From a virus, in the IMG/VR virus record IMGVR_UViG_3300030102_003270, positions 21,686 to 85,685 of that record: a DNA stretch of 64,000 bases. One strand, written 5' to 3'. Position numbers and translations under genes: made by a program. Positions 1,432 to 63,114 of this stretch are shown here, in pieces; the first letter of the stretch is position 1; each line of letters starts with the position of its first letter. The notes under the pieces were generated by a model that was given only the letters and a program-made list of their open reading frames with translations, was not told where the DNA came from and did not search any database.

Positions 1432-2778
1432 ATGAGTGGATATATTAAGACAGTAAAAGATTTAGAGGCCGCAACCTATGGAATTAGAGGCGGTACAGGA
1501 AATACCCTACTGAAAGGTGCAGGTGTTGTTGGTGGATTACATACCGCCCATGACGCTGGAACATCTGTTTTGAGTACGGGTGCAGCAAGCGGATTAACTT
1601 CGCTATATAACACAATATTTGGACAGAAAGTTTGGTCTATGCTTAACCAAGAGGTTAATGCTTTGGCTATTCTTCCAAAGAGGCCATACACGTCAAGTGG
1701 ATGGAGAATACTAAAAAGCAGGGCATTTGGTGGAAGTGGTTCTACCTTTGACGTTGGTACAGGTGATTTTGGAGGGGCTGCTCCAAGAGCAGACAAGTTA
1801 GGTGCTGTTGAGGAGAATGCTGCAATAGGTGTAGGAAACCTATCGGCTGTTGCACCCGAATACACAACGCTGTTTACCAGCCCTAAGACCGTTGCACATC
1901 TGTTTGAGTTTTCTGAGATTGCTCTTGAGATGGCTAAGATTGACGATGGTGTAGGTGACTTAAGAGCCTTAATCCGTGAGGATATGGGTAAACACCACGC
2001 TGAAGTACAGAACAAGATGCTACTAATGCCTCTTGAGAAGTATGACGAAGCAAACACACTAACAGACCTTGGAAGGCAATATACTTCTTTGATGAAGGTA
2101 GTTGCTTCAAGTGCTGAGTTAGCAGCAATGCAGGATGCTTCGTTAATAGCAACAACGTCTGGCTCTACCCCAGATACCATAAGCAAGTTGTACGGTAACA
2201 ACGATAGGGACTTAGATGGTAGCGGTAACCCTACTGCTTCTTTCTTAGACGCAGAAGTTGATTTTGGTGCTGGATATGCTACGGCAAACTGTCGTGTTCT
2301 AACCTTAACTATCTTAAACGATATGCTAAGGCGAATCCGTCAAAACGGTGGTAGTCCAAAAGTTATCTTAACTGGATATGATACTATTCAGCATCTAGGT
2401 GACTTGCTACAAGCACAAGAGAGGTTCATGGACCGAAGGGAGATTATTCCTACGCACAACGGCGTAAGGGGTGTTAAGGGTGCAGAAGTTGGCTTTAGAG
2501 TCGCTACTTACTTTGACATACCAATTATTCCTTGTAAGGATATGCCAAGCACAGGTGAATCTACCTCAAACAGACTAAGTGACATACTGATACTTGATAC
2601 CGACCATCTTTGGATGAGCGTTATGAAGCCTACTCAGTATTTCGAGGACGGTATTGACAACGGCAACCCATTCGGTGTTGGAACATTAGGAAACAGGGCA
2701 ATGTATCGAACCATTGCTGAGACTGGTTGTTCCTTCTTCAAGGGCCAAGGTAAGATAACCAACCTAAAGAGTGCGTGA
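1432..2778 (+). CDS. Major capsid protein (HK97 fold, predicted)
   Basis: 448 aa, five bases after the protease stop, with GAGGAG overlapping that stop as ribosome binding site. The length, the Gly/Ala-rich N-terminus, the alternation of mixed strands and helices, and the position directly after a prohead protease/scaffold gene all fit an HK97-fold major capsid protein. No short signature motif exists for this family, so the call rests on gene order and overall character. The N-terminal 60-90 residues could be a delta domain removed by the protease. Confidence 0.82.
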   Translation: MSGYIKTVKDLEAATYGIRGGTGNTLLKGAGVVGGLHTAHDAGTSVLSTGAASGLTSLYNTIFGQKVWSMLNQEVNALAILPKRPYTSSGWRILKSRAFGGSGSTFDVGTGDFGGAAPRADKLGAVEENAAIGVGNLSAVAPEYTTLFTSPKTVAHLFEFSEIALEMAKIDDGVGDLRALIREDMGKHHAEVQNKMLLMPLEKYDEANTLTDLGRQYTSLMKVVASSAELAAMQDASLIATTSGSTPDTISKLYGNNDRDLDGSGNPTASFLDAEVDFGAGYATANCRVLTLTILNDMLRRIRQNGGSPKVILTGYDTIQHLGDLLQAQERFMDRREIIPTHNGVRGVKGAEVGFRVATYFDIPIIPCKDMPSTGESTSNRLSDILILDTDHLWMSVMKPTQYFEDGIDNGNPFGVGTLGNRAMYRTIAETGCSFFKGQGKITNLKSA

Positions 2779-10503: not shown

Positions 10504-12087
10504 ATGGGCAGCAGTGAAGTATATACAGGAGCAGGAGCATCGGCAACGTTAATCCCAGAAGCGGATTATAACATTGGAAATCAGTTAGGACCGATATCAA
10601 TAACCACAGATGTAAAGGGTTTTGGTTTCCTTAATTCAAACAATAACAGTGCAGTAGATAGAACAACATTATCATGGGGTTCTGACGCTACTGACGGCGG
10701 CGCAGAATCAGATACCAATAGGCTCCCTGTCAATATATATCAAGGATGTTTTGCTGAAGTCTCTAAATACGAATCGGGTTCAACCACAGAAGTTCCCTTG
10801 GGAATACACGTAATCAAGAGCAACGCTGCACAGACAATAACTTTCGATAGAGAACTTTCTGGTACAGATACAGATAGATTCACAGTAAAAATACTAGGGT
10901 TCGGAACACCTTTACATTCACCAGCAGTAATGACAGGTAAGCACAATTTACTATCAGATAACTGGTTAGGTTTGGTGAACTCAATAACTGCACCAAGCAT
11001 TGATGCTGAAATGAAGCAATTAAATCTAGCACTAGGGGGAACCAGAAACTTTGGTTTCCAATACAAAGGAGCAGAATCCTACGGAAGTGCATCTATTGAT
11101 GTATCTCTAAACAATGGTTCTTGGTTATATTACGCATTAGGAAAGAAAACATTTACTGCAACTCAAAAAACTAATTCTCAAGGTACGGCTATAAATTTAA
11201 GTTTGAATCAAGAAAACGGTAAAGTGTACTATGACGATACAAATAAGACATTTCATAGATTAGAATCAACAACATTAAGCCCACCTAAACCATACGGAAC
11301 AGCAGACGCTAGTATACTGAAGTTATCTGATGATAGTAAAATAGATTATCAATTTACAGAAGCCGATGGAGACTCACTACCGTCTTTTGCATTAGAATTC
11401 ACAAATGAGAAAGGTAATGTTGCTGACGCAAACTATTTTCAAGATGCTTCAGATGAAAGATTATTCTCTCGTATATTCACAGGATGCCAAGTCAATACAT
11501 TATCAATAAATTTTGAAGAGGGTCAAGAAGTTAAGGCTAGTATTGACGCAGTTACTAGAAGAGGATATGATAGCAACCAAAATTACACACCAAAAAGAAG
11601 AGTTAGAACACCATCTTCTTTATTCAACTACAATGATACCGATGCAAACTTACCATTTATGTTTTCAGATGGAACCATTCAAGCATTTGGTCAAAATCTT
11701 GCTAGAGTAAAAAGCGGGACTCTTACTATTAACAACAACATAACTCCACAAAGATACATCGGTAATTATGATAGGTCTATTGTATCTGCACATATACCTG
11801 CACAAAGAACTTATGAAATAACTCTTAACTTACAAATTACAGACAGGTTGATTTTTGATGAATTAAGAAGTGCTGATGAAGTTACTCTAGGAGACATTGT
11901 TCTAACATTTGATAAAAATGCTACTGCCGATACTGATAAGATTACAATGACGTTGAAAGATTACATAGTGCAATCTGTTGATATTCCGTTCCCAGACGAC
12001 AAAGGAATGATTGATGTGGCCGTGACTCTAGCGGCCCGGACCCTACATGAGTGTAAATATCATGGTAAATGGATTATCATTGGATAA
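10504..12087 (+). CDS. Major tail (tube) protein
   Basis: 527 aa, GGTGATAAA before ATG. The opening 'YTGAGASATLIPEADYN' and the run of beta strands ending 'RTYEITLNLQITDRLIFDELR' are typical of siphovirus-type tail tube proteins. It lies just upstream of the frameshifted chaperone and tape measure genes, the canonical order. The length exceeds most tube proteins (150-350 aa), so extra surface domains are likely in the middle (about 230-350). Confidence 0.68.
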   Translation: MGSSEVYTGAGASATLIPEADYNIGNQLGPISITTDVKGFGFLNSNNNSAVDRTTLSWGSDATDGGAESDTNRLPVNIYQGCFAEVSKYESGSTTEVPLGIHVIKSNAAQTITFDRELSGTDTDRFTVKILGFGTPLHSPAVMTGKHNLLSDNWLGLVNSITAPSIDAEMKQLNLALGGTRNFGFQYKGAESYGSASIDVSLNNGSWLYYALGKKTFTATQKTNSQGTAINLSLNQENGKVYYDDTNKTFHRLESTTLSPPKPYGTADASILKLSDDSKIDYQFTEADGDSLPSFALEFTNEKGNVADANYFQDASDERLFSRIFTGCQVNTLSINFEEGQEVKASIDAVTRRGYDSNQNYTPKRRVRTPSSLFNYNDTDANLPFMFSDGTIQAFGQNLARVKSGTLTINNNITPQRYIGNYDRSIVSAHIPAQRTYEITLNLQITDRLIFDELRSADEVTLGDIVLTFDKNATADTDKITMTLKDYIVQSVDIPFPDDKGMIDVAVTLAARTLHECKYHGKWIIIG

Positions 12088-12300
12088 ATCGAGTGAAAAA
12101 CAATTCAAAGGGTTATACAATATTTCTAAGAAAGTCGAGGGCGAAAATGATGCACAAATCTGTGAATCTGTGGGTCTATTCCTGTTTTCGTAGTATGGAT
12201 TCGTCCATATTAGGAGGGCTAAAAAGAGGATAAAATCCTTTTATCTTAACATTCCACTAACAATCGTTTGTTTGTTAGTTTTATATTGTAGGTGGAAAAA
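12088..12300 (+). other. 213-base gap after the tail tube gene with inverted repeats and a weak small ORF
   Basis: This is the longest gap in the rightward unit. A GTG-initiated frame runs 12093-12233 (46 codons) without a convincing ribosome binding site; I do not call it a gene. GGAT-AAA-ATCC near 12228-12238 is a small palindrome. ACTAACAA/TTGTTAGT hairpin at 12256-12279 is followed by T-rich sequence and a TATA-like TTTTATATT (12278-12286). The gap may hold a partial terminator plus an internal promoter or leader for the chaperone and tape measure genes. Confidence 0.45.
12256..12279 (+). terminator. Hairpin followed by T-rich sequence
   Basis: ACTAACAA (12256-12263) pairs perfectly with TTGTTAGT (12272-12279), then TTTAT follows. 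It could end part of the tail-tube transcript, consistent with tube protein being needed in greater amounts than the genes after it. Archaeal terminators mostly need only a T-run, so this is tentative. Confidence 0.4.
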
Positions 12301-12657
12301 ATGGAAAATGTAGTAAGTGATAAGAACAGACTGTTTACAACAGTAGAAACAAAATGTCATCTTTTGAAAGTTGATGAAACTTCAGATGATATATTGAAGG
12401 TGTGGGTCAAAGAACCTACATGGCTTCAAGTAGAACAAGCGTTATCTGTGGTGATGAACCTTAACGCTGACCAAGGAAGTATGGGCATAGACCTAAATAA
12501 AATGTATAGGTTTATGGTTGAAAACTTCATAGAGAAAACAGAACCGTCATTAACGACAGTAGAAATTTTAAGGTTGACTCCTTTTGTTGGAGCGCAATTA
12601 AAAAATGTTCTACCTAATCCCTTTAATGATTTCTTAGGGGATGATACGGGAAACTGA
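12301..12657 (+). CDS. Tail assembly chaperone, short form (gpG-like)
   Basis: 118 aa from ATG 12301 with AGGTGG six bases upstream; a GTG at 12292 would overlap that site. Acidic and helical, like lambda gpG-type chaperones that coat the tape measure before tube assembly. It sits between the tail tube and tape measure genes, where tailed viruses keep this gene, and its last codons carry a -1 frameshift signal giving the long form. Confidence 0.72.
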   Translation: MENVVSDKNRLFTTVETKCHLLKVDETSDDILKVWVKEPTWLQVEQALSVVMNLNADQGSMGIDLNKMYRFMVENFIEKTEPSLTTVEILRLTPFVGAQLKNVLPNPFNDFLGDDTGN

Positions 12658-12869
12658 AAGAGATTCGTAGAGGACTAAGAGGAGGAGAAATAAAACCTAC
12701 TTTAGCCTCACGAATCCTTATTTATTCATATTCAAAAGTATTTGGTATAAGTCCAATGGAAGCATACAATACTCCGGCAACAATAATATTAGAAATGATG
12801 AAGATACATACAGAAGCAGAACAGTTGAAATCAGAAGAAATAGATAAGCAAATAAAGAAGGTAAGATAA
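12301..12869 (+). CDS. Tail assembly chaperone, -1 frameshift product (gpG-T-like)
   Basis: At 12648-12654 the 0-frame codons read ACG-GGA-AAC, containing the heptamer G-GGA-AAC. Slipping back one base continues translation from CTG 12654 to TAA 12867-12869, adding 71 residues for about 189 in total. The extension ('KEIRRGLRGGEIKP', then a helical, charged end) has no good start of its own. The tape measure ATG overlaps its TAA (TAATG), so the long form is translationally coupled to the tape measure gene. Confidence 0.78.
12648..12716 (+). promoter_or_regulatory. Programmed -1 frameshift signal (slippery site plus stem-loop)
   Basis: The slippery heptamer GGGAAAC lies at 12648-12654. After a 7-base spacer, a stem-loop begins: GATTCGT (12662-12668) pairs with ACGAATC (12710-12716), then GAGG with CCTC and CTAA with TTAG. 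Single bulged A residues at 12669 and 12674 interrupt the 5' arm. That is 15 bp around a 23-base purine-rich loop. Heptamer type, spacer length and stem match known -1 frameshift stimulators. Confidence 0.82.
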
Positions 12870-14347
12870 TGGCTAAAGATGCACCTGAACTAACCAACGA
12901 TTTAACTGTTGCTATCAACAGATTAAATCGAGCAAAAGACGGATTAATATTTCGTTTTGGTCAAGCAGGTGAAAGCGGAAATAAACTTTGGAATGTCATT
13001 AGTAGATTTAGTTCTGGTAGCACATTTTGGAGATTACAAAATTATCTTCGTGGTGTCTCAAACGTAGTTAACTTCTTCACAAAAGCACAAGAAGAAAACA
13101 GAACACAAATTTTAGAGTCATTAGAATCTAATCTAGCACTTGCTGATTCATTGAAAATGTTAAAAGAAAGATATGACAAAATAGAAGCAGGTGGAACTAC
13201 ACCATACTATGAATTACTTTTAGGTGATTTAGGAGATGCAAAATTAGCAAAAGAGGAAGCAAAAGGATTTTATAAAAAATATATAGATGAAATTGAAAAT
13301 GTTGTAAAAAAAAGAGGCGCACAACTTAGAAAATCTATATTGAATAGAGGTAAGGGTATAACAAAAAGATTTGCCGAGGCTAATCCTTTTGAGTTCCAAA
13401 AACCAACATTAGAAGGAGGGACAAAAAATGCACCAATACGAGGCTCAATTGGATTTATTTTAAAAGAAACTTTTGCTCCTTTAACGAATATACTAACTAA
13501 GACATTTGAATTTACAAAAGGTCCATTTCTTGACAGTATAAAAGGCCCGGAAAGAATAGTGAGAAAAAAATTATTTGGTCTAAGTAAACTTGAAGAATTT
13601 GAAAATAAAGGTAGAATTGGATATAGAAAGAAAATGACACAAAACCTGCAAGTGATGGGAAAATGGTTCAAAGGAGCAGGTAAGGCTCTAGGAGAATTTT
13701 CAGTTAAAGCGGCTGCTCTCATAGGTAAATTTGCTATGTATGGATTGCTGATTGTCTTTGGAATAACTCTAATTGCTAAAATAATCAACGCAGGATGGCC
13801 TGTGATTAGAAAGCAGTTTGAAGATGCTTTTGGTTTCTTCAAGAAAGCATTTTTGAATGTTCTTGGAATTCTTTTAGGAGTATTCAATCTAATTGGAAAA
13901 ATATTCGCAGGTGATATAGTAGGAGCAATCAAAGTTTTCTTCAAAGAAATTGTATTCAATCTAGTCAAATTGCTAGGTAATCTCCTAGCAGGTCTATTCA
14001 AGATTATGTTAGGTATCATTACAGGAATCTTAGCAGGTATTTACAATGCTACATTTGGAGCGTTAACAGGTCGCAAAATTGGTAAGCATTCAACAGGAGG
14101 TGTATCTAGAGGAGGTCTAGCGGTTGTTGGCGAAAATGGACCGGAACTAGTATCATTACCTAGAGGTGCAAGAGTACAGAACAATGCAAATAGCATGGGT
14201 GCAAGAGCAGGTGGAAACAATATTCACATTCACATAAATGGCCGTGTTGGTGCTTCTGATGCAGAAATAAGAGATATTGCCAACAAGGTAGCAAGAGAAA
14301 TCAACATAAGAATGAACAGAACAGGAGCAAATAGAATAGGTGCATGA
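12869..14347 (+). CDS. Tape measure protein
   Basis: 492 aa. Hydrophilic, helical N-terminal half; long hydrophobic helices at about 280-390; then 'GLAVVGENGPELVSLPRGARV' near 415-435, the characteristic C-terminal motif of tape measure proteins. It ends with an 'IHIHING' strand and a basic helix. It follows the frameshifted chaperone and overlaps it by one base. At about 0.15 nm per residue the tail would be near 75 nm, so quite short. Confidence 0.87.
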   Translation: MAKDAPELTNDLTVAINRLNRAKDGLIFRFGQAGESGNKLWNVISRFSSGSTFWRLQNYLRGVSNVVNFFTKAQEENRTQILESLESNLALADSLKMLKERYDKIEAGGTTPYYELLLGDLGDAKLAKEEAKGFYKKYIDEIENVVKKRGAQLRKSILNRGKGITKRFAEANPFEFQKPTLEGGTKNAPIRGSIGFILKETFAPLTNILTKTFEFTKGPFLDSIKGPERIVRKKLFGLSKLEEFENKGRIGYRKKMTQNLQVMGKWFKGAGKALGEFSVKAAALIGKFAMYGLLIVFGITLIAKIINAGWPVIRKQFEDAFGFFKKAFLNVLGILLGVFNLIGKIFAGDIVGAIKVFFKEIVFNLVKLLGNLLAGLFKIMLGIITGILAGIYNATFGALTGRKIGKHSTGGVSRGGLAVVGENGPELVSLPRGARVQNNANSMGARAGGNNIHIHINGRVGASDAEIRDIANKVAREINIRMNRTGANRIGA

Positions 14348-15100: not shown

Positions 15101-17869
15101 ATGCCGGGTGTATATGTTGGAGATACCAAGTCACTAGTATTTCCAATGTTATGCGATGGATATATCAAACAGGTATATGGCGACCTAAACCTAACCAACC
15201 CTATTCAAGAACTAGGGGTAAGAGGTGGTCTTTGGGGCCAAACTACCCCATTTACATTTGAGGCAATTATAACCCCATACGATGTAAATGGATATGGAAC
15301 AAAGACAGGAACAGGTGTTGGGATATCTGACTCTCAGAAAACAAACCCTAGTTTAAGCATAGACGTAACTAGTAATGAAGCAGATTACCAATCTAATTCC
15401 TTCTTTACAGACCGAACTGCACAAAAAATGCATCTTTTTTACAACAGGAACTTTGAGGTGTATTTAGAAAACACTACTATTTCTACAACAGGGTTGAAAA
15501 ATAAAACATTTAATAGACCAGCAGAATATAGAATAGTAGCAAAAATACATCAAGATAATACAACTAAGGTTACTGCAACATCAGATACAATCATAAAACC
15601 AAACAATCTTCTACATGGTTATTATGATGCTGTTGGTTTCTATGATGGAATAAATACTGAACTAACACAAGTATCAGCAAATGCAATGAACGCACAACCT
15701 AGTAAAGTAATCACTGTATCTAGCAATAGTTTCACAGGAGAGGTTAATGCTCCTGCTGTTGCATCAACAGGAAGTGTAACATTCGATATAAATAATAATG
15801 CGCCTTCTTCCTACTTTCCTGCTACGAGTGCATCAGCAAGCATTACATTCAACAACAACAATTTTGCTGTTGATACCACACCCGTTGCTGGCACAGGAAC
15901 AATAGAATTTCACAATACTCTAGGGGTAGTCACTACCAATGCCTCAAACCGATATATACAGGTGGTGAGTGAAGATGGGAATACAACAACAAGATGGTTT
16001 CCGGTTTCTGGACTAACCTACAATAATAATGTTGACTTGTCAAATGTAGATAATTTTTCTTCGGGAGATAGGGGTTTTACTGTCACAGACAATTCTAACA
16101 ATGTTTTCTCTAGACAGGCACAGGCTAAACAATTTCATGATGCTGTCAATGCTTGGAACAATGGATGGGCTGGAAGTGTAGCCGTGGGACTGGTTCTAGC
16201 AGGACAGGATGATATTGTCACATTCACTGCTGCAATAAGAGGAACATCACCAAATAGACTAGGGACCGGAGGAGACTTATCAACAGGTTCGGGCATTGTA
16301 GATACTGATGTAGAGGTCACATCCAATATGAGTGGAGGGGTAGATGAAGTAGTTAGCAACGAATCCATAACGATAAACACAGGTAGTGGTGATAAGAAGT
16401 ACAGGATATTTAGCAGTGGTGTTGTGGGTTCTATACAGACATCATCATCAGTGAATTATATCACATTCAGAAAAGGAAATTCCTTAACCAATACTATGGC
16501 TTCATTGGTTTCTGCTATCAATGACCCAACAAATGGCAACACCGAAGTCACTGCATCTGCACTAAGCAACAATGGGGTCACATTGACTGCCAATACTGGT
16601 GGAACTAATGGAAACAGTTTCACAATAACAACAAGCAACATGTCAACATCAAACACTTCTCCAAATCCTACAATAAGTTCTTTTTCTGGTGGAGTAAACG
16701 AAAATATTCCTAATGAACACATACAACTAACAGATGCAGATGGAACAACAGTCAAGTTTCTAGCCGCACATCCAACCACTAATAGTAATAACTATCCAAC
16801 AGGCTCTACCATAACGCTCAGTGGTATTCAGTATGTCATTTACAGATTACCATCAACAGGCTCCAATAGGGCTAATTTTGCAAACGCAGTAAATAATGCG
16901 ACCAATCTAGACATAACTGCAACCAATGATGGAGTTGATGAAGACAAGGTGAATCTAACTCAAGACAATGGAGGAACAAGTGGAAATACAAGCATTACAG
17001 GAGTGAATACCAGCAATATAACGGCGGCGAATTTTAGTGGTGGTCTGAACGCTGCAAATCCAACTGATTCTCTTGACATAACGGATGCTGGTGGTGTGTT
17101 AAAGAAATACAAACCGTCAACAAACGCTTCTGGTGAGACTGATACCACTTACGAGTTCTTTCAAATAGGTGCTGATAATAATGCAACTGCTACTAATTTA
17201 GCATCAAAGATAACCAGCGCACACGGAGGAAATATATCAGCAACTCCTTCTAATAACACAGTGACAATAAAAATATTAACAATAGGAAACTCTTATGCGA
17301 TTTCCAATAACTTGGATAATATAGCATTATCAAATAACAACACTACCTTCGATACATCGGGAGTTAGAATAATAACAGTTCAAACAACACAAGCAGATAC
17401 AATAGGAGCAGGTGAGAAAATATACGATGTAAATGCTAGGTTGATAGGAACCACTGCTGATGTAAGTGGGAATGATATAACTTTAGATGCAGACCCACTT
17501 GTTCCTGTTACATCTGTAATATATGCTTCTCAACCAAGAGAGGCATTGTATGTAGAATCAACATATAGGATATCTTGCTCATACAACACTAACTCCTTGA
17601 GAATATACGTCAATGGAAATGAAGTTGCATCTCAACCTATAACAACGACAATATTGCCACACGGTTTCTTCTTTGACCCTAGTGATTGTAGGATTGGTCA
17701 AGGTGAGACTAGAACAGGTTCTTCATACAGTAATGACAAAGCGAATCAGTTTATGGGAGAGATGTTTGAGGTATGTATGCATTCAAGTGGGGAACCAAGC
17801 CCAAGAAACAGCACACTCTCCGTTGGACTTAGCGATATCATATTCTATTACAGGTTTGGTGATGAGTAA
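15101..17869 (+). CDS. Tail adhesin with LamG-like ends and repeated beta modules
   Basis: 922 aa, AGGTGATT upstream. The N-terminus 'FTFEAIITPYDV' and C-terminal 'RISCSYNTNSLRIYVNGNEV' followed by 'FMGEMFEVCMHSSGE' look like two parts of one laminin-G/concanavalin-like jelly roll. Between them lie about four related modules of 115-120 residues, with 'SGGV/SGGL' boundaries at about residues 409, 529 and 645. Each starts with an 'I.I.D..G....Y' strand, has an 'A..L..AIN' helix and ends '.VTLT...GT.GNS'. Probably a virion protein that binds host surface sugars. Confidence 0.68.
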   Translation: MPGVYVGDTKSLVFPMLCDGYIKQVYGDLNLTNPIQELGVRGGLWGQTTPFTFEAIITPYDVNGYGTKTGTGVGISDSQKTNPSLSIDVTSNEADYQSNSFFTDRTAQKMHLFYNRNFEVYLENTTISTTGLKNKTFNRPAEYRIVAKIHQDNTTKVTATSDTIIKPNNLLHGYYDAVGFYDGINTELTQVSANAMNAQPSKVITVSSNSFTGEVNAPAVASTGSVTFDINNNAPSSYFPATSASASITFNNNNFAVDTTPVAGTGTIEFHNTLGVVTTNASNRYIQVVSEDGNTTTRWFPVSGLTYNNNVDLSNVDNFSSGDRGFTVTDNSNNVFSRQAQAKQFHDAVNAWNNGWAGSVAVGLVLAGQDDIVTFTAAIRGTSPNRLGTGGDLSTGSGIVDTDVEVTSNMSGGVDEVVSNESITINTGSGDKKYRIFSSGVVGSIQTSSSVNYITFRKGNSLTNTMASLVSAINDPTNGNTEVTASALSNNGVTLTANTGGTNGNSFTITTSNMSTSNTSPNPTISSFSGGVNENIPNEHIQLTDADGTTVKFLAAHPTTNSNNYPTGSTITLSGIQYVIYRLPSTGSNRANFANAVNNATNLDITATNDGVDEDKVNLTQDNGGTSGNTSITGVNTSNITAANFSGGLNAANPTDSLDITDAGGVLKKYKPSTNASGETDTTYEFFQIGADNNATATNLASKITSAHGGNISATPSNNTVTIKILTIGNSYAISNNLDNIALSNNNTTFDTSGVRIITVQTTQADTIGAGEKIYDVNARLIGTTADVSGNDITLDADPLVPVTSVIYASQPREALYVESTYRISCSYNTNSLRIYVNGNEVASQPITTTILPHGFFFDPSDCRIGQGETRTGSSYSNDKANQFMGEMFEVCMHSSGEPSPRNSTLSVGLSDIIFYYRFGDE
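16327..17160 (+). repeat. Tandem beta-module repeats in the adhesin gene
   Basis: Module boundaries at about 16327, 16686 and 17035 share the coding pattern Ser-Gly-Gly-[Val/Leu]-[Asp/Asn]-[Glu/Ala]. Spacing is about 350-360 bases. The copies are divergent in DNA, so they are old duplications. Confidence 0.55.
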
Positions 17870-20800
17870 TGGCTGATAACTATACTTATGTAATCAATCA
17901 AACCGAAAACCAATCCCTCTCTCTAAACCATGTATATGCTAATAGGGATGACCCCTTTCCTAATTCTGCATTTACAGATACATCAGTAAATCCTGTATTG
18001 AAGAATCCCGGTCTTAATACCAATGACCAAGATTCTGCTAACTTCTTTGAGATAAGAAATGCACCAACTAGTGTGGGTTCTAATGATGAGCCAATAATTT
18101 CTGGTCATACCAAAACCAGACTCGTAAATAGAATAATTCCATCTAGCAATCAGTCAACCTTGGCTAACTATGCTAAGAACAAGCAAGAGACATCATCCTA
18201 CAAGATTAGAGTGTATGACAGAAATGCCAGTATTACTGGTCAATTGTTAGCAGGTTCAACAGGACCGGGAATGGACTTAGAAAGCAAAGACTACTTCGTT
18301 CTAATCAACCCAGAAATACGTGGCGATGATGGAGCAGTGAAGAACAGACCGCATTTCGCTAAGATAAAGAGACTGACCACATATGATTACTATGGTGATG
18401 GTTTTGAGTTTGAACCTAGATACCCAACTTCAATACCAAAGGACACAAACTTTGAGATTTACGAGGGTCCGGCAAAGACAGATACTAGTGTGGTAGCAGT
18501 ATCATATGGATTAAGAGGTAAAACAGACACCACTTCTGGTAGAACATCCTTATTCGATAAATACGATGTTAGCAGCACAGTAAGTAGACCTACTTGGTAT
18601 TTCTATGAGGATAGGCTACAACACAAGAATCAATTGGATTACAACACCAAGTATCAACTTACTACTTGCAGATGGTTTAGTGATTGGGCGGCAAGAGGCG
18701 CAATACGCTCTAGCACTATCAATACAGTGACTCTATATCAAACAACATACAAAACTGCTGTAAATGCCTCATACAATGGTTGGACTAATGCTGATATCGG
18801 AAGAAGTGTATTTTCTGGCATTGGCGCAGGACTCGTAGAATGGATAGGGAATATTGCTTCCTTTGATAACAGTGCGAATACAATAACATTAGATTATCCA
18901 AGAAGAACATTACCCACTAATGCAGGTCTATCTAACGTAGACATTTACGTGGGGAGAGACATACAGCAAACGATATTTCTAACCGAACAAGAGTATGGAG
19001 TGAATATCACAGACTTAGGAGACATAAAACACAATGGAATACTAATTGACAACAACAGAAGTGAAGATACAACTAGAGCATCATTTCAAAATATTAGTGG
19101 AGGAACGGATGTTGATACCGACACAGTATACAATTTTGCCCCAGATAGATGGGGATATGCATTTAGAAATTACAGTAGAAGTTCTGAGGACAAGACTTCT
19201 TCTCATCCAGATACATTTCCAACAGGCTCGTATAGATTTAATCATGGTAATTTTATAGGACCAAGTAGATACCTATACTACAAATCATCACATCTTAAGA
19301 ATAACATTGTGGACCCAATACTAGAATCTTCAGTTAACTTTCCAAGAAACAAAATGAGTCAAATAGCAAGGGCCAAGGTCTTCGACATATCTGGAATACA
19401 GCATTTGAAACTCAAAGAAGACCATTCCTTCGTTGTAAGAACTACATTGCATACATCGTCATTAGGCCAATACAAATTGCCATTCAAGGCAACAAGCATC
19501 ACAGGAAACAAGATAAGACTAAGTAAACTTACTGAGAATTTTGATGTGAGAAAAGATGATTTCTTGAAGGTAAACGATTTGATAAGAGTAGAAAATAACT
19601 ACTACATCATATCTGCCTTTGATTCTCCTGCTATTGTAAACGAAATGATAGTGCAAGACATAACAGTGAACAAGATAAAGACTGATTCAGAAACAACGTG
19701 GGGAAACATTACCACTATGCCATCATTTACTGATGTAGACGCATACGTTAGAGCATGGAATGGTGGACTCAAAGGAACATTCCCCCTTGATACAGAAGCA
19801 GTGTATGGCGCAAACCATTCTTTCCAGCGACTAACAATAAATGGTAATACCATTAGCAAAACAAACGCTTCAATGAACGATAATAAAATAGTATTGTTAA
19901 GTCCAGAATTCTCAAATCATCAGATAGACATAGACTATGGAGACTCAGTTCATCAACAAATAAAACTCACATCTGAATTTACAGCAAAGAAATATTACCA
20001 ACCAACGCCAATATCTATGCTATATTATATATCTGGGAACTATGCTATTGATGAAGAAATATTTAGTGGTTCAGTTGAAGATATAAATTCACAAAACAAG
20101 CATGGATTGATTAGTTATGAAATATTAGGTAGAGATAAACTTTCTAAACTTCTAGGCTCTACTACTAATAAAAACCTAAATCACACTAATGATATTGTAT
20201 ATTCTACATTATTACCAATGTTAAACAACAGTGTGAATGTAACAATTGATGGTAACTTAATCGCCACAGGAACAACAACAGAACTGAGAATAACTGATGC
20301 CCAATTTGCTTTGGGTATAGTGCCTAAGCCATTTGATATTCTTATGGATAGCAGTAACAATCTATTAGGTGAAATAAGCGTAGTCGGACCTAGATTTACG
20401 GGTACGGGTTATAGGCAATACCCTATTACACTAAGAAGTCCCAACATATCTGAAACTCAAGTAACTAGCGGGGCTACTGTAAAGTTATACAGGAGAGATG
20501 TAGGGTCATATATTTCGGGAGTCAAAGCACTATTATCAAATCCAACACTCACTACATCACCTACTGATTTCACTTCAATAGGAGATAAGGGTGTAGTTTT
20601 CATAGACGGAGAGAGGATAGCATTCACCGATAACGGGGTTGGCCCTATAACAACCACCATTTCATATTCAGACTTAGCGTATTCTTCTGCAATTGGAGGA
20701 TATAACAAAGACACTTCGCTTGGTTTTGACATAATAGATACGGACAACATAGGAGTAAGTGATTCAAAGTTTGCGTTTAAGGCAGGATTAGAAAGTGAAG

Positions 20801-23800
20801 TTACTAGTGTAATGAATGAGATAAGCACTCTTTCCACTTCTACATACTTCAATGTGTTAGATTCTGTTTCTCAAGACGGCCAAACTATCATTACTCTATC
20901 TCCTACCTTCCCAATAGTTCTAGGCAGTATAGAAGACAATTCTTCTGACACTACCTTTAGTTCACACAACAGCGATTTGTATATAGTGAATAGAAACATT
21001 CCAAGGTCGGGTTTTATTCATACTCTCAAAAATGAAAATACAACACAGTATGTGCCAAGAGAGACTTTCAAGTATAATCCAATCCAAGAAATCAGACCGG
21101 GTGAACTCAAGGAGACTTTTACATCCGTTTTGAACGATGCTAAAATAAATCAGAAGATAATGGGATATTCTTCTGGGTATAGAATAAACGCTGATGGTTC
21201 TATCAACGGAACTAATTACTCTACTCCTAACAACAATCCCATTATGGGTAGCAATTTCCACGATGAAAACTATACGGGAAACGATAAACTAACACTACTA
21301 CCAAAACAATTCCCTAGTTCTAGGTCATCGAAGTTTGTTGGAGTTGACACGATTAGAGACATAGAGCAAAAGGATTTCAGAAGCAAGAGATATGAATTGT
21401 TGAGTGTAGGAGATTTATATCCAGAATCGAAACTTAGATACAACAGCATATTCAACGCAGCCTCTTTCTCTAATTACGGTCTGTTGACAGAAACAAAACC
21501 ACAGAAAGATGTAAACAGCATTTCTCACACTAATTACACAGGAGGCAGTTTTGCATCGTTAATGAATGAGGCTAACTTCAAAACAAACAAGATAAATTCA
21601 TCTTCGATTCTTCCTTCAGAAATAAAAAGATTCGGAGTCATGAGATTGGTTGAGGCCACATTTGATTGGCACTTTACCCCGATAGATGCTGAATCTCTAA
21701 GTGACATAGATACCATGCCTAAGATAAGCCCTCAAATCATGATATATCCAAGATGGAGCAACCCTACTGATTTGACTTTTACATTGTCTTCTGAGAATGC
21801 CTTCAATATTACCACTAACCAGATTACTTGCAGTGGTTCTACCACAAGAACATTCAAAGAAGGAGATATGATATTCAAGGAATCTGATGGTAGCCTAATC
21901 GCTAGAATAAATAGCGCAACAGACGGCGGGAATGTAACTACCAATAGTTCTGGTGTATTGTCTGGTTCTGGGGTAACTGTATATCAGAACGTATCTGCGG
22001 GTACTAATGTATTCAAAGCGAATGTTAGGATTTGGGACTTATGTGCAGATGATGGATTTGGATTGGATTCTCTAGCGGTAGGTGCCGATTTCAGACATAT
22101 GGCGGTATATTTAGTCAAAGGAGACATAGACAAAACTTACTTTCAACACGCTAGGAGACTGAGCGAAGGCGGAAATACTTTCAAATCGCACAATATATTC
22201 CTGCCAATCATTCCAAAAGTATTCGATAACAACGGAGTTGCCCCAAACAACACAGACAATGATGATGTTAGGAGAACTCCTTTCCACGCAGAAGCAGATT
22301 GGGGATTGACGGGGGTTACTAGTTCAGACAAATATTGGCATTATTCTAGAGTGATAAATGCACTTCATACTCAGACATTCCTTTCTAACACTAGTCAAGA
22401 ACAATACAAAGTGGCGAGAGGCACACACTTGTATGACAACTGCATAGCCGTATTCAAACACCTTAGAGGCTCGATATCACAGTCACAGGGATTGAGCCAA
22501 AGAAGAATAGATACCATGTCATGTCTTTTGGAATTAGATACTCAGTCAAATTACAATTCATACAATATTGCTGTATCGCATAACCAACTTGGCGACCCAG
22601 ATAATAGACAGCAACATAGTAGAAACATGAGGATAGACCAATTAGGAAGCCCAGATGTAGCGTATATCGGGACTAAAACTAAAATTTCCTTGTTTTCGGG
22701 AGAAGAAGACTATTCCAATCCTCCTGTTAGACAACATCACAATGACGCAAATCAAAGTGATGGAGAGATGTATCAAGCCCAGATGATAATCAAACCCACA
22801 ATAGATACAACGGGAATGACAGAAAACAACACGATAGAAATCACAATGGATGCAAACAACAAACACAATTGGATTCACTATGTACCTAATCTAGCAGGGT
22901 ACTATCTAGTTAGAGCAGGTAATGGTAGGGACACTTTGAAGATACTATCCCATACAGTGAATGACAGTGGTAATCATGCAGTTCATACTTTGACATTAAA
23001 TACTAACCTTACAGCAAGCCAGAGGTATAGATTAATGAGAATATCAGAAACCACATTCGATAGGACTCCGGGTTTCATTGAATTCAACAAGGAGATACAT
23101 ACAGGACTGCAATATTCTGATGTTGTCAATAGACTCGATACAGGACAAAAAGCGACAATGGGAGAAAGCACTACCGATTTCGTAGGAGAGGGAATAGTCT
23201 CCATGTATGTTCTATTAGACGTAGATGATGATTTAGACTCCAACAATAAAAGAGTGGAGAACATAGACTTAGTAGAACAAAGCCTAGAGTTATTTAGTGA
23301 TGGAGAGGTAATTGATTGTTGTATAACAGATGGTAGGACAACGACTAGAAAGAATATCACTGTGAGCAAATCAACTTCCAGTGGTGCAGAAAGCCTTAGA
23401 TTTGACTATGAAGGAACACTTTCTGGAAATGGGGTTGTCTCCTTCGGTAAAACATTCACAATAACAACAAACACAGACTTCCCCAACGGTGTAGAAAGAG
23501 CATACATAGGAGCAACTATGGCAATAGGTCTAGATGCAGAGAAGGCAATCAATGAGATATTGAATGAGAATGACATAGAAGTGGACGATAATGAGAGAAA
23601 CATAACCTTCACAGGGGCTATCGTTGAAAGCACCAGCACAAACACAATCACATTAGAATCAGAAGTATCTACCGATGTAATAGCAAATGGAGATGTTCTA
23701 TACAATCAAGAGGGTAAACTCATTGGTATAGTAGCATCGGGTCAAGGAACTACTACGTTAACGATGAGTGATGTTGATTACGATAGTGATAGCACTGTTG

Positions 23801-24654
23801 ATGTATTCTATACTCCACAACAATACGAGGAATTAGTCAAATACACAAGAAGGCCGTTTGTAATCAACACAAAGTTCGCTGAGAGTGATGTATTCACAGC
23901 AGTAAATTTCCTAGCATCTAAGAAAGGACTAGAGTATATTTTCAAGGGAGATAAGATACAGATTAGAGACATTGATGATTATTCATCTAGAAGACTATTC
24001 TCCTTGAGATATAGAGATGGTCAAAATTTGTTAAGTGCAGAAAATAATACTTCTCTGTTTGATAAAGCAAACAAAGTGATAGTGATAGGAGACAACGTAA
24101 AAGCAACATCAGAAATACCTACTGATAAAAACACAAGAACATTGACTCATGTTGATTCTAACATCAAATATGCTAAAGAGGCACAAATAAAAGCAGAACA
24201 ACTGCTTGCTTTGCACAATACAAAAACAACAAAAGTAACTATTGAGATAGAGCGTAAAGACAAAATGAAATTAATGAAGCCCGGTGATATTATTACATTG
24301 AATTTTCCAAACCATAACATTCCACCGGATGATTACATTGTTTACGAAATAGAGAACGCTATGTCTTCTATAAGTAAAATAACAGTCGGAACGTTTAATA
24401 AGACAATAGCAGAAAGGCTTGCTGAAATGAATATAGAAAGAAAAGGTGGCTTTTCTACCCTGTTAACGAGGGAAGTTACAGTTGAAGTAACTAGCAAAAC
24501 AATTCTAGATGAAATAGGAATTCGTGAGGTTTCACTTAAAACACAAAGAACAACTCCCACAGGCACACCGATAGGTTGGGGAACCTTAATAGGTTGGACA
24601 GAAGTAATGAATGCAGGGAGTGATGTTGTTACAACGGAGGAAATAGGACTATGA
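17869..24654 (+). CDS. Giant tail protein with hub/baseplate-like C-terminus
   Basis: 2261 aa; its ATG overlaps the previous TAA. The C-terminal 300 residues look like the gp27/gp44-type tail hub: 'FAESDVFTAVNFLASKKGLEYIF' followed by 'KIQIRD', an 'ANKVIVIGDNV' strand and a 'MKPGDIITLNFP' strand, as in baseplate-hub and prophage tail proteins. The other about 1900 residues are beta-rich and unassigned. Hub domains in such large chains often carry extra modules for host binding. No peptidase motif was seen. Confidence 0.6.
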   Translation: MADNYTYVINQTENQSLSLNHVYANRDDPFPNSAFTDTSVNPVLKNPGLNTNDQDSANFFEIRNAPTSVGSNDEPIISGHTKTRLVNRIIPSSNQSTLANYAKNKQETSSYKIRVYDRNASITGQLLAGSTGPGMDLESKDYFVLINPEIRGDDGAVKNRPHFAKIKRLTTYDYYGDGFEFEPRYPTSIPKDTNFEIYEGPAKTDTSVVAVSYGLRGKTDTTSGRTSLFDKYDVSSTVSRPTWYFYEDRLQHKNQLDYNTKYQLTTCRWFSDWAARGAIRSSTINTVTLYQTTYKTAVNASYNGWTNADIGRSVFSGIGAGLVEWIGNIASFDNSANTITLDYPRRTLPTNAGLSNVDIYVGRDIQQTIFLTEQEYGVNITDLGDIKHNGILIDNNRSEDTTRASFQNISGGTDVDTDTVYNFAPDRWGYAFRNYSRSSEDKTSSHPDTFPTGSYRFNHGNFIGPSRYLYYKSSHLKNNIVDPILESSVNFPRNKMSQIARAKVFDISGIQHLKLKEDHSFVVRTTLHTSSLGQYKLPFKATSITGNKIRLSKLTENFDVRKDDFLKVNDLIRVENNYYIISAFDSPAIVNEMIVQDITVNKIKTDSETTWGNITTMPSFTDVDAYVRAWNGGLKGTFPLDTEAVYGANHSFQRLTINGNTISKTNASMNDNKIVLLSPEFSNHQIDIDYGDSVHQQIKLTSEFTAKKYYQPTPISMLYYISGNYAIDEEIFSGSVEDINSQNKHGLISYEILGRDKLSKLLGSTTNKNLNHTNDIVYSTLLPMLNNSVNVTIDGNLIATGTTTELRITDAQFALGIVPKPFDILMDSSNNLLGEISVVGPRFTGTGYRQYPITLRSPNISETQVTSGATVKLYRRDVGSYISGVKALLSNPTLTTSPTDFTSIGDKGVVFIDGERIAFTDNGVGPITTTISYSDLAYSSAIGGYNKDTSLGFDIIDTDNIGVSDSKFAFKAGLESEVTSVMNEISTLSTSTYFNVLDSVSQDGQTIITLSPTFPIVLGSIEDNSSDTTFSSHNSDLYIVNRNIPRSGFIHTLKNENTTQYVPRETFKYNPIQEIRPGELKETFTSVLNDAKINQKIMGYSSGYRINADGSINGTNYSTPNNNPIMGSNFHDENYTGNDKLTLLPKQFPSSRSSKFVGVDTIRDIEQKDFRSKRYELLSVGDLYPESKLRYNSIFNAASFSNYGLLTETKPQKDVNSISHTNYTGGSFASLMNEANFKTNKINSSSILPSEIKRFGVMRLVEATFDWHFTPIDAESLSDIDTMPKISPQIMIYPRWSNPTDLTFTLSSENAFNITTNQITCSGSTTRTFKEGDMIFKESDGSLIARINSATDGGNVTTNSSGVLSGSGVTVYQNVSAGTNVFKANVRIWDLCADDGFGLDSLAVGADFRHMAVYLVKGDIDKTYFQHARRLSEGGNTFKSHNIFLPIIPKVFDNNGVAPNNTDNDDVRRTPFHAEADWGLTGVTSSDKYWHYSRVINALHTQTFLSNTSQEQYKVARGTHLYDNCIAVFKHLRGSISQSQGLSQRRIDTMSCLLELDTQSNYNSYNIAVSHNQLGDPDNRQQHSRNMRIDQLGSPDVAYIGTKTKISLFSGEEDYSNPPVRQHHNDANQSDGEMYQAQMIIKPTIDTTGMTENNTIEITMDANNKHNWIHYVPNLAGYYLVRAGNGRDTLKILSHTVNDSGNHAVHTLTLNTNLTASQRYRLMRISETTFDRTPGFIEFNKEIHTGLQYSDVVNRLDTGQKATMGESTTDFVGEGIVSMYVLLDVDDDLDSNNKRVENIDLVEQSLELFSDGEVIDCCITDGRTTTRKNITVSKSTSSGAESLRFDYEGTLSGNGVVSFGKTFTITTNTDFPNGVERAYIGATMAIGLDAEKAINEILNENDIEVDDNERNITFTGAIVESTSTNTITLESEVSTDVIANGDVLYNQEGKLIGIVASGQGTTTLTMSDVDYDSDSTVDVFYTPQQYEELVKYTRRPFVINTKFAESDVFTAVNFLASKKGLEYIFKGDKIQIRDIDDYSSRRLFSLRYRDGQNLLSAENNTSLFDKANKVIVIGDNVKATSEIPTDKNTRTLTHVDSNIKYAKEAQIKAEQLLALHNTKTTKVTIEIERKDKMKLMKPGDIITLNFPNHNIPPDDYIVYEIENAMSSISKITVGTFNKTIAERLAEMNIERKGGFSTLLTREVTVEVTSKTILDEIGIREVSLKTQRTTPTGTPIGWGTLIGWTEVMNAGSDVVTTEEIGL

Positions 24655-24998
24655 TAACTGATGCAGGTAAAAACGCCACAGCCGATTTAATGATTGGAAC
24701 TAATGGATTCACCCATATAGCCGTTGGAGATGGGGGTGATGATACTTCTAGTAGTCAAAATACTTTAGATAATGAAATAATTAGAAAGCCAGCAGATTCT
24801 AAAACAGTAGTTGGTAATACAATAGTCTATACTGTGTCTTTTACAGGTTCAGAACTAGTATCAAATGTAATATCAGAAATGGGAGTTTTTGATGATGCTA
24901 ATGGAGGTAATATGTTAAGCCGGGTCAACTTTAAGAGCATAGGACCATTAGCATCAAATGAGACATTGAGTTTCACTTTTAGGGTGGTGATTCCCTAA
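24651..24998 (+). CDS. Small tail-fibre-associated protein
   Basis: 115 aa, ATGA overlap with the hub gene and TAATG overlap with the fibre gene. The start 'MITDAGKNATADLMIG' followed by 'FTHIAVGDGGDD' resembles a widespread family of small proteins, or fibre N-terminal domains, in tailed viruses that connect fibres to the baseplate. Probably a fibre adaptor. Confidence 0.62.
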   Translation: MITDAGKNATADLMIGTNGFTHIAVGDGGDDTSSSQNTLDNEIIRKPADSKTVVGNTIVYTVSFTGSELVSNVISEMGVFDDANGGNMLSRVNFKSIGPLASNETLSFTFRVVIP

Positions 24999-27900
24999 TG
25001 ACAGAATTTTCTGGTTTTATCAGCACCTTGAAAATAGCCCCCTCAACATCAGACCATTTAGAAGACGCTATTGACAATATCCATAGTGGTATCATCAAGG
25101 CACTGAATGTTGCAGATGCAGGTTCATTCATAGCGCATGGTTTCATGGTGACATCAAACATCAATGGGACATTCAACATAAGTGAAGGAGGTTACTTCGA
25201 TAAGGGAGAGTACAAGACTCTAGGAGCGCAGACTAACGCTGACCCCGGAAATGCATTTACAGGAGCCACTGACTATGATTGGTATGGTTTCATTGTAATC
25301 AACTCAAGTGGAGCCATAGCGTTTAGAGGAGACAGTAGTTTAGGAAATAGTGCTGCTAAGACTGCCGACCTTAATGATGGCGACATACCAATATGCGTAG
25401 TTCAGATAGGAAAGGGAACAACTAATACCAATCTTTCAGCAGCAAGAAAGATACAGTATTTTGGTATAAAGAAAACAAGCAACGTCCTCACAGCAGGTGA
25501 GGAAAATAGTGGAGACTTCAGAAAGTTATTCGAGGTTAAGACTGATGGAGATATATATTCATATAACGCATCAAACGCTTTCCATACTAAGTTAGCATTT
25601 ACAAATGCTTCTGGTTCAAACAAAACTGTAACTGTCCCAAGCATAACAGGGACATTGATTACAACAGGAGATAGTCAAACAGTTTCTACTTCTATGATTG
25701 AAGATGGCGCAGTTACACTTGCCAAGACATCTGGACTACAAGGCTCACTTACATTTGGCATAGCAAATACCAATGCAGTAAAGGTAGACGGCACAATAAC
25801 AAATGGAGACTTTGCCAGATTCACTGGTACAGGATTAGAAGGAAGAAGCATATCAGAAGTAAAGACACAACTAGCGTTGGATAAAGGGGATGTTGGACTA
25901 GGTAATGTAGATAACAAATCATCTTCCACACTACAAACTGAGATACTAAATGCTGCAACCGCTAGTGATGTAGGACTAGGAAACGTCACTAACGAATCAA
26001 AGGCAACGATGTTTACATCTCCTACATTTACAGGAACAATATCAATACCTAATATTTCTAACTTAGAAACAGCAGTAGCAGCAAACACAGCAAAGACAGT
26101 TAGAACAGACTCGGAGATAAATGCACTGGCACAGGCTTTGATTGATGACCTAATTGCTGGCGCACCTACCGCTTTGAATACTCTAAACGAATTAGCAGTT
26201 GCCATACAATCTAATGATTCTGATATTACTGGAATAACTACTGCTTTAGGTAATAGACTAAGAATAGATATCAACAATCAGAACTTGAACGCTACACAAT
26301 TAACCAACGTTAAAACAAACCTATCACTGTCTAAGGCAGACGTTGGCCTTGGTAATGTTGACAATGACTCCACTGCAACAATAAGGGCAGGGACAACAAA
26401 GGCAAACGTTGGTCTTTCTAACGTTTTGAATCAAGCACAAATCACAACATTCGTTTCTGATAATGCTCCTACTGCTACTGCCATTGGTGATTTGTGGATT
26501 GACTCGAATGACAACAATAAGATGTATAGAGCATCTGCAACAGGTAGCAGTGATTGGGTTGCAGTAACATTAGGCAAAGGTGCTTTGGGACTAGTAAAGG
26601 CAGATGTAGGGCTTGGTAATGTAGACAACATAACAACTGCACAAATGAGAGCAGGTGTTACTCATTCAGATGTAGGGACAACAAAATCAGATATAGGACT
26701 AGGCAATGTAGAAAATAAATCATCTGCAACTATCAGAGGAGAAATAGAAGTTAGTAACATACCAGACCTACCCACCAGCAAAATAACAACTGGGACTTTT
26801 GCTGACGGTCTTATATCAAAGAGTTCAGTTATAGCACACTCTCCTTCTGCAACTAAGGGTGACATAGGTGATTTGGGTTCAGATATAGATATCTCTAATG
26901 ACTTCATGTATGTCTTTGATAGTTCAGCGAACAATAATATCAAAGGTACTACGATAGATGAAATACTAGGTAAGATAACATCTTCTCAATTAGTAGGAAC
27001 AGGAAAGGTATTCAGCACATTACCCGCTAGTGGTGCGGAAGTAAACGTTCAAGCAGACTTCAATGAAACGGATAACACATCAGATGCATTCATACAGAAT
27101 AAGCCTACAATACCTAGCGGCAATCAGATTATTGATTGGACTCAAGACCAAGGCTCAACAAACATAAACGCTGGAAACTACATCAACACCAATCAACTAA
27201 CAACATTCGATATTGGCGTAGATACTGATAACAATCCTACAACTATTGCTCATGGTGAGACTCTCACCTTTACAGGCGGAACGGGCATCTCAACAACAAC
27301 TACTGCTGATGGAACAATCACAATCACAAACGATAACCCAGACCAAACTGTTTCTCTAACAGGTTCGGGTGCGACTAGTGTAAGTGGCACTTATCCTAAC
27401 TTTACGATAAGTTCCACTGATAACAATACCTTCAGAACAGTATCAGTAGATACAAACGGAGATGGTAGTGCAAATGAGACATTAGGAACTAGTGAGACTC
27501 TAACTATCAAGAAAGGCTCAAACATAACACTAGCAGAAGCAAGTGGGGTAGTGACGATAACAAACGCTGCTCCCCATATTGCAACAAACTTAGGAAGTTC
27601 AACCGCTACTAATCAAATCACCATTACAAGCAGTACAGGAAACAATGTAGTTGTTGGGGAAGCAACTAGTAGTATTGCTGGATTAATGTCAACTACTCAT
27701 CATGATAAATTGGACGGTATTGAAGCATCTGCTGATGTGACAGATACGGATAACGTCACTAACGCAGGTGCTTTGATGGATAGTGAGGTGACTAACCTTG
27801 CACAAGTAAAAGCATTTGACTCATCTGATTACGCTACTGCTGCTCAAGGAGCAAAGGCTGATTCAGCACAACAACCTCCAAGTGAAGGCGCATTCGCTAA

Positions 27901-38828: not shown

Positions 38829-39746
38829 TTACCACCATTCATCTAACGTCTTTTGTTTTGAGTCATTTTTTATTGGGGCTAGACTCCAACCCATTGCCTT
38901 GTATATTGGTTCAGCCTTCTTTATAATAGATTCTGCATAATGGGGCCAATCTGGTGTATGTCTATACAATTCTTCCTTTGTAGAAGCAGCGATATAGGAC
39001 GGTCTTTTGACTACGCCTGTAACCGGATTAACGTAGGTTGTTCTCCTAACGTCATCTGCTACCTTTAGATAAACATAAGAATCATCTATCTTATTGTCTT
39101 CATTCTGATGATTCCAGATAACACCTTCAATGCCAGAACCTATACTTGGCCTTTTACCAGAAGTTGTGACCACATTCAATTTTTGACCGCACTTACTACA
39201 ACATGCCTCATGACTGTCTCGCTTTGCTTCATTGTGAATATCAATGCAATCTTGCATTGAAAGTGCTTTTTTGCAGTCATTACACTTGTAAGATAGCCTT
39301 TCTGGTCTATATCTGCTTCTGTTAATCAGATAGTCAACTGGGACTTTTCCTTCAAGGACTGCGTAATATGCCTTCTTCAACATGCTAGTTATTTCTAACT
39401 CGGTGAATTGACCAACCCACATTTTCAGAATGCTCATCTGAGTCTCCTTGGCTAGTTTGGTTATTGATAACCGCTTTGCAGTAAAACCCGTCATTACAAA
39501 TTCTGGCTCATTCAGATACTTTCCATCCTTCCAAGAAATCAAACCAGCGTTTCTATTCTTAGTTAGACCTACACCTAGAGACTGATAGTATTTCTCAAAC
39601 TCCAAAGTAACAGGATGTTCATCCAAACCTAACAAGTTAGGAAATATCTGCCTAACATGATTGTTTAGTAATTGTAACGTTGCTTCTGCTTCTTCCATAG
39701 GCATTTGAACGTATATTGAATCAGTGTGTCCATAAACAACCTTCAC
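38829..39746 (-). CDS. polB2: DNA polymerase B, C-terminal half (motif C, thumb, PIP box)
   Basis: 305 aa from GTG 39746 with GGTGATT five bases upstream. It begins almost at once with 'VVYGHTDSIYVQ', family B motif C (His where the first Asp of DTD usually is; the catalytic Asp is kept). 'FVMTGFTAKRLSITKLAKETQ' matches the palm-thumb junction. A zinc-ribbon insertion ('CNDC'...'CSKC') lies at about 155-190. The chain ends 'KQKTLDEWW', a PCNA-binding PIP box. It must pair with the N-terminal half encoded upstream to make an active enzyme. Confidence 0.88.
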   Translation of the reverse strand: MKVVYGHTDSIYVQMPMEEAEATLQLLNNHVRQIFPNLLGLDEHPVTLEFEKYYQSLGVGLTKNRNAGLISWKDGKYLNEPEFVMTGFTAKRLSITKLAKETQMSILKMWVGQFTELEITSMLKKAYYAVLEGKVPVDYLINRSRYRPERLSYKCNDCKKALSMQDCIDIHNEAKRDSHEACCSKCGQKLNVVTTSGKRPSIGSGIEGVIWNHQNEDNKIDDSYVYLKVADDVRRTTYVNPVTGVVKRPSYIAASTKEELYRHTPDWPHYAESIIKKAEPIYKAMGWSLAPIKNDSKQKTLDEWW

Positions 39747-39931: not shown

Positions 39932-40018
39932 CTAATCACCAAACAGAAAGCGATACAGGATAACGCTCATAGCGGAAACATACAATACAATTATACTGAA
40001 ACTGACGACATTCATCAT
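39932..40018 (-). CDS. 28-aa hydrophobic micro-ORF between the PolB halves
   Basis: ATG 40018 overlaps the TGA of PolB-N (ATGA), with GGTGATGGAG upstream. Nearly the whole peptide is one hydrophobic helix ('VVSFSIIVLYVSAMSVILY'). It ends 'RFLFGD', and its 3' end forms the binding site of the next micro-ORF. Confidence 0.52.
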   Translation of the reverse strand: MMNVVSFSIIVLYVSAMSVILYRFLFGD

Positions 40019-63027: not shown

Positions 63028-63114
63028 TGGTTGCGAGAGTGGGATTTGAACCCACGAAGCACTACGCACCGAATCTTAAGTCCGGCCCCTTTGACCATAC
63101 TTGGGAATCTCGCA
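63028..63114 (-). tRNA. tRNA-Leu (UAA)
   Basis: 87 nt including an encoded CCA. The acceptor stem TGCGAGA/TCTCGCA is perfect. The anticodon stem CCGGA/TTCGG encloses loop CTTAAGA with anticodon TAA (63076-63078). The T arm GTGGG-TTCAAAT-CCCAC is canonical, the variable arm is long as in leucine tRNAs, and the D-loop has its GG. No intron. It may help translate Leu UUA codons, common in this A/T-rich genome. Confidence 0.93.

Follow-up and report, generated by a model that had tools for sequence, protein, structure and literature searches.

Comparative sequence evidence for a programmed −1 frameshift cassette, with a conserved Shine-Dalgarno-like element, in the tail assembly chaperone gene of magrovirus-like archaeal viruses

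Introduction

Do archaeal ribosomes change frame at the end of a small tail gene of an uncultured virus, and which elements around the site would hold them there? The gene, G, lies in a window of 64,000 nucleotides (the whole stretch of DNA analyzed; all positions are those of the window) from a virus contig of 96,269 bases, IMG/VR record IMGVR_UViG_3300030102_003270. A first-pass annotation had read its end as a −1 frameshift signal in an archaeal-virus tail chaperone.

Frameshifting on archaeal ribosomes has already been inferred for haloviruses (available parts of PMC5009743 and PMC8211752). The available text of the former lists −1 frameshifting for the tail chaperones of HVTV-1, HCTV-1, HCTV-2, and HCTV-5, with HCTV-1 using G_GGA_AAC, the heptamer found in our window; the latter, a 2021 review, names in its available part the Saccharolobus fucosidase as the only archaeal −1 frameshift that had been studied experimentally, and treats the haloviral cases as predictions. 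Tail-chaperone frameshifting in archaeal viruses is thus not new. For magroviruses, only PMC8651126 in the literature searched contained both "magrovirus" and "frameshift" wording, and the frameshift passage in its available text is a cobalt chelatase reference. The description of the Aoguangviridae/magroviruses names the tail assembly chaperone (TAC) gene in a genome map legend, and its family profile, in which translation is entered as unknown, makes no mention of frameshifting (PMC10768690).

Methods

Four homologue searches matched 181, 244, 208, and 66 relatives, and up to 80 from each were examined. Among the 390 loci examined, 332 contained a G homologue, and these comprised 130 distinct regions. 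The non-redundant set of 89 sequences was obtained by dropping two loci with a short T frame (L051 and L367) and clustering at 90% identity. Pairing energies were calculated with what we take to be the archaeal anti-Shine-Dalgarno (anti-SD) sequence.

Results

By its gene content, the source virus can be classed as a magrovirus-like, marine archaeal virus of the order Magrovirales. It encodes an RFC small subunit, an archaeal-type ATP DNA ligase, a split family B polymerase (PolB), an ERCC4-type nuclease, and a TFIIB-type zinc ribbon; MCM, PCNA, and primase were not among the replication genes identified in this virus. The features by which Magrovirales are recognized were found together, namely an archaeal replication set, split PolB, an HK97-type major capsid protein (MCP), opposed gene blocks, and a size of 90–100 kb. 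Compared by its description (PMC10768690), the Aoguangviridae/Magrovirales group shares with the window two opposed gene blocks, the RFC small subunit, ATP DNA ligase, TFIIB-type protein, a size of ~90–100 kb, and the split polymerase, which is as in that description. When the MCP was searched by tblastn against a phage collection, there were nine matching records, and all came from archaeal viruses: eight were of Haloarcula viruses and the ninth was of a Methanofastidiosa virus. The host of this uncultured metagenomic virus is presumably a member of Poseidoniales. A link to the alphaproteobacterium Maricaulis through L165 (NZMJ01000011.1), a 10.5-kb contig with a G 88% identical to ours in a metagenome-assembled genome labelled Maricaulis, was not accepted; L165 is probably a mis-binned virus contig. 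The window also carries two very long ORFs in the tail block on the plus strand (17869–24654, 2261 aa; 24998–31804, 2268 aa) and, on the minus strand, a tRNA-Leu (UAA) gene (63028–63114) and a gene for a ThiF-family protein (52336–52923) that adjoins the TFIIB-type zinc-ribbon gene.

Within the tail module the order is tail tube, G, T, and tape measure (Table 1). The tail assembly chaperone family phrog_25860 was matched by G in 31 of the 32 aligned relatives. The AlphaFold model of G had a mean pLDDT of 83, and a structure search with the predicted fold gave no significant solved match, with the HK97 chaperone 2ob9 third (E 3.6). GTG 12292 is a less likely start for G than ATG 12301, because GGTGG lies 6 nt 5' of the latter. 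In the gap 5' of G, a short inverted repeat (12255–12285, plus strand; ACTAACAA ... TTGTTAGT) followed by a T-rich stretch looks terminator-like by eye.

Table 1. Features of the putative frameshift cassette and of its genomic context in the window.
Feature	Position	Strand	Evidence or remark
Major capsid protein	1432..2778	+	tblastn, 9 archaeal-virus records; marks archaeal-virus context
Tail tube protein, gene preceding G	10504..12087	+	Pfam PF18906 Phage_tube_2, E 1.1e-18
GGTGG, likely G ribosome binding site	12290..12294	+	anti-SD pairing −7.1
G, tail assembly chaperone, 0-frame product, 118 aa	12301..12657	+	ORF; phrog_25860, E 5.9e-5
Shine-Dalgarno-like element AGGGGATGAT	12636..12645	+	2 nt 5' of heptamer; G-run ends 7 nt before heptamer
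Slippery heptamer G_GGA_AAC	12648..12654	+	in phase; equivalent heptamer in 130/130 distinct relatives
0-frame stop TGA, directly after heptamer	12655..12657	+	0-nt distance in 19/89 relatives
T extension, −1 frame, 71 codons + TAA	12654..12869	+	conserved protein; weak match to phrog_9001 tail assembly chaperone, E 0.018
Probable stimulatory hairpin	12658..12719	+	main helix 12662–12716; three further pairs extend outwards
Tape measure protein	12869..14347	+	phrog_991, E 1.3e-8; phrog_19914, E 2.2e-7
Family B DNA polymerase, two ORFs (exonuclease/N-terminal part; C-terminal part)	38829–39746, 40015–41685	−	split

The heptamer GGGAAAC reported by the first-pass annotation is in the phase claimed for it, the G frame reading ACG-GGA-AAC-TGA, that is, X_XXY_YYZ. 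All 130 distinct relatives examined carry an in-phase slippery heptamer in a short overlap with an open −1 frame, and none of them lacks both heptamer and stem, the combination that the annotation had named as counting against it. This is more than chance would give: elsewhere in 44 non-redundant G genes, 22 of 5052 codon positions had an in-phase slippery heptamer. The heptamer varies in type (GGGAAAC in 54, AAAAAAC in 31, GGGAAAA in 20, AAAAAAA in 12, GGGAAAT in 10, GGGAAAG in 2, and AAAAAAT in 1), with at least 20 type changes on a G tree of the 89 sequences, a tree built from few columns and with many unresolved forks. GGA-AAC and AAA-AAA encode different residues, yet the site stays slippery, and two relatives with identical upstream G residues have GGGAAAA and AAAAAAA, respectively. 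GGA was in the P site in 77 of the first 81 sequences, and the codon before it ended in G in 77/77 by way of ACG, ATG, AAG, GAG, TTG, or TCG. The changes of heptamer type and preceding codon therefore indicate that slippery nucleotides were kept while amino acids varied.

The A-site codon of the heptamer was AAC in 85, AAA in 32, AAT in 11, and AAG in 2 of the 130 relatives (summed from the heptamer counts). Where it encoded Lys in the non-redundant set, it was AAA in 25 sequences and AAG in 1, whereas AAG makes up 42% of T Lys codons (binomial 2e-5, a figure that ignores kinship). Decoding by archaeal tRNA-Asn and tRNA-Lys may explain this bias. According to the available text of PMC5009743, A_AAG is preferred in E. 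coli, and both types occur among haloviruses. The AAAAAAA or AAAAAAC runs of some relatives would suit a frame change in which RNA polymerase, not the ribosome, slips; we regard this as highly improbable, because GGGAAAN, which has no long homopolymer, is found in the window and in most relatives, and because the site has features specific to ribosomes, namely the codon phase of the heptamer, the SD-like element, and the hairpin.

Past the heptamer, the −1 frame runs open from 12648 to a TAA at 12867–12869, giving 71 codons after the slip and a 1-base overlap with the tape-measure ATG at 12869, in agreement with the first-pass annotation. The T frame is under purifying selection: of 118 pairs, 82 were usable, and their dN/dS had a median of 0.12 and never reached 0.5; the other two frames of the region averaged 7.7 and 4.2 stops per 60 codons. 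Two relatives have short T frames: in L051 (4001–4400), the SD-like element and heptamer are kept with a T frame of only 38 nt, apparently owing to an internal deletion just 5' of the tape measure start, and in L367 the frame is cut by the contig end.

Since the heptamer is universal among the relatives examined, changes in type while remaining slippery, and leads into a frame under purifying selection, a programmed −1 frameshift is very well supported by comparison. We hold it very probable that the magrovirus tail assembly chaperone gene carries a cassette for programmed −1 ribosomal frameshifting, giving G and a G-T fusion. Comparison strongly supports the archaeal-virus setting as well as the frameshift, through gene order, PHROG matches, and the MCP in addition to the heptamer.

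Immediately 5' of the heptamer, where the window reads AGGGGATGATAC, lies an SD-like element that the first-pass annotation overlooked and that is, across the sequences compared, more conserved than the hairpin. Anti-SD pairing of −7 kcal/mol or lower was found at the site in 89/89 non-redundant sequences vs 114/7083 other codon-spaced positions in G, and the mean pairing energy was −9.2 compared with −7.1 in synonymous shuffles. This conservation is visible at the synonymous level. At codon −4, GGG was used for 60 of 65 Gly (15% elsewhere in G) and GAG for 22 of 23 Glu (31% elsewhere in G); at codon −3, GAT was used for 58/58 Asp and GCT for 18/18 Ala; and at codon −2, GAT was used for 74/76 Asp (n = 89 throughout). 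The pairing optimum lay 12 nt 5' of the heptamer, or 13 nt 5' of the 0-frame P-site codon, and the optimum for 56 start codons of the window was also 13 nt; the element therefore has, relative to GGA, the placement expected ahead of a start codon.

This normal initiation spacing is also what would be expected if T were a separate gene with its own initiation inside or just after G, where the SD-like sequence would serve as ribosome binding site. CTG is the first T-frame codon past the slip in the window, and 13/89 relatives have ATG, GTG, or TTG among the initial 8 codons of T, but ATG occurs there in 0/89, the T-frame codon at the spot that the element would serve is mostly CGA, AGC, or AGA, and T protein conservation begins 5' of most possible starts. 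As a separate start would also leave unexplained why the heptamer is kept in every relative, we give this reading very little weight beside a frameshift.

Downstream, the hairpin of the first-pass annotation is where it was placed, with a spacer of 7 nt, and its size needs revision, from the 15 bp given to a main helix of 20 pairs. The segment 12655–12730 folded with a minimum free energy of −22.5 kcal/mol (z = −4.5 against dinucleotide shuffles, 1/200 of which were equally stable). With synonymous shuffles of 72 nt, z was −4.3 in the window and −5.8, −4.3, −4.4, −3.5, −3.9, −3.8, and −4.1 in L005, L006, L007, L015, L019, L022, and L027, respectively. The annotation had proposed covariation of the stem in related viruses as a check, and the outcome was divided. 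In 11 sequences of the window's lineages, selected because they carry the stem, 85% of cells paired, 7 pairs had changed on both sides, and the covariation score was reached by 0/500 shuffles, whereas a broad alignment of 18 sequences gave no consensus hairpin; we therefore claim the hairpin for the window's clade only.

Across the non-redundant set, z at the site was below −2 in 41/89 and below −3 in 25/89 relatives, compared with 63/443 and 16/443 control stretches of G and 10/89 and 2/89 downstream stretches of T. These counts exceed those of the controls, and the local hairpin signal is therefore real, yet not universal: a structure peak directly past the heptamer was absent in clades B, C, and F. 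The hairpin thus appears lineage-specific on these comparisons, strong and covarying in the window's clade and not clearly present in roughly half of the relatives. A two-window structure test was barely specific, with p ≤ 0.05 at 54/89 sites vs 40/88 control stretches. Longer structures in stem-poor lineages were considered and set aside, as some long folds were seen but the two-window test fired nearly as often in G controls. Compensation between SD strength and hairpin was not seen, the weak correlation being opposite in direction and uncorrected for kinship. An Rfam search returned one chance-level match, on the other strand.

The patchy hairpin, together with a synonymous-shuffle structure test that also fires in control stretches and a common peptide (MGDD) at the SD-like site, could mean that the heptamer acts alone and that the SD-like element and hairpin are by-products of amino-acid or codon constraints. 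We consider this rather unlikely. The excess of GGG among Gly codons at codon −4 speaks against it, as does the replacement of GGG by GAG at that codon, which changes the residue and retains the same purine-rich pairing, and as do the double-change pairs of the window's clade, although these come from rows picked for the stem.

Discussion

On the preferred reading, most ribosomes would translate G and stop at TGA 12655. In a minority, the P-site tRNA-Gly, reading GGA, and the A-site tRNA-Asn, reading AAC, would slip by −1 to GGG and AAA, and these ribosomes would continue for 71 codons to yield a G-T fusion of 189 aa. Pairing of the SD-like sequence with the 16S rRNA 3' end while GGA is in the P site may hold the ribosome on the heptamer, as may the downstream hairpin in the window's lineage. 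By analogy with lambda, G would coat the tape measure protein, and recruitment of tail-tube subunits would fall to the rare T part. The sequences themselves show the heptamer, its phase, the coding T frame, the conservation of the SD-like element, and the covariation of the hairpin in the window's clade; from these we infer that ribosomes slip here at some rate, with stimulation by both the SD-like element and the hairpin, and that T has such a role.

The locus resembles lambda G/G-T (G_GGA_AAG) in several respects: the site lies between the tail tube and tape measure genes, the in-phase heptamer near the end of G is of the same kind, the shift has the same direction, G is homologous to tail chaperones, and a startless, overlapping −1 frame under protein selection overlaps the next gene, as T does in lambda. 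It differs in the A-site codon, which is AAG in lambda and AAC in the window, and in the upstream element, since no SD-like element precedes the lambda heptamer (anti-SD −2.5). In HK97, anti-SD pairing near the heptamer is −5.8, without magrovirus-like pairing.

The likeness to the E. coli dnaX cassette lies in its three parts, an upstream SD, a slippery heptamer, and a downstream hairpin (available text of PMC5009743). The window too has an SD-like element 5' of its heptamer, and it shares the hairpin with its own clade but not with all relatives. The 10-nt spacing between the SD and the heptamer of dnaX was not found in the window, where it is 7 nt; dnaX also differs in having A AAA AAG and in being a cellular gene.

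Closer in setting are HCTV-1, HCTV-2, HCTV-5, and HVTV-1 (Druskaviridae, Saparoviridae), which have annotated joined tail chaperones and a gene order in common with the window. We confirmed −1 heptamers of the GGGAAAC, AAAAAAC, and GGGAAAG types in their sequences. The MCP of the window is related to those of HCTV-1, HCTV-5, and HVTV-1, and the halovirus chaperone sequences are only distantly similar to the window's. The haloviruses differ in that HCTV-1 (−5.4) and HCTV-2 (−2.5) have weak SD-like pairing 5' of the heptamer or none, and in HVTV-1 (−9.1) it lies further upstream, so the element is not general among archaeal viruses. An SD-like element ancestral to magroviruses and haloviruses was ruled out, because only HVTV-1 among three distinct sites pairs strongly. 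Haloferax has been reported to make no use of the SD mechanism at 5'-UTRs (PMC3986360, in part).

SD stimulation as such is known, since the available part of PMC10885494 shows that PRFect already takes a ribosome binding site (RBS) score as a frameshift feature; in the literature searched, we found no report of SD-stimulated frameshifting in archaea. Given the halovirus precedent, the device itself is known, and the magrovirus case is a new example of it that is larger and more elaborate. What is new is the magrovirus cassette, its upstream SD-like element, and the A-site bias for Asn over AAG. We think it reasonably likely that the magrovirus cassette works in three parts, its extended SD (GGGGNTGAT or GGAGG) pairing again with the archaeal anti-SD while the ribosome is elongating, in initiation register with the P-site codon, and so pausing it on the slippery heptamer. 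The avoidance of AAG in the A site (2/130) suggests that slippage in archaea obeys eukaryote-like tRNA rules rather than those of E. coli.

Magroviruses thus provide more than 100 natural variants of one site, in which the logic of the heptamer and the SD-like element are constant and the hairpin is variable. With this set of variants, SD-driven −1 slippage on archaeal ribosomes, and which A-site codons are slippery there, become directly testable. If true, the three-part cassette would show, on comparative grounds, that SD pairing can drive frameshifting by archaeal ribosomes.
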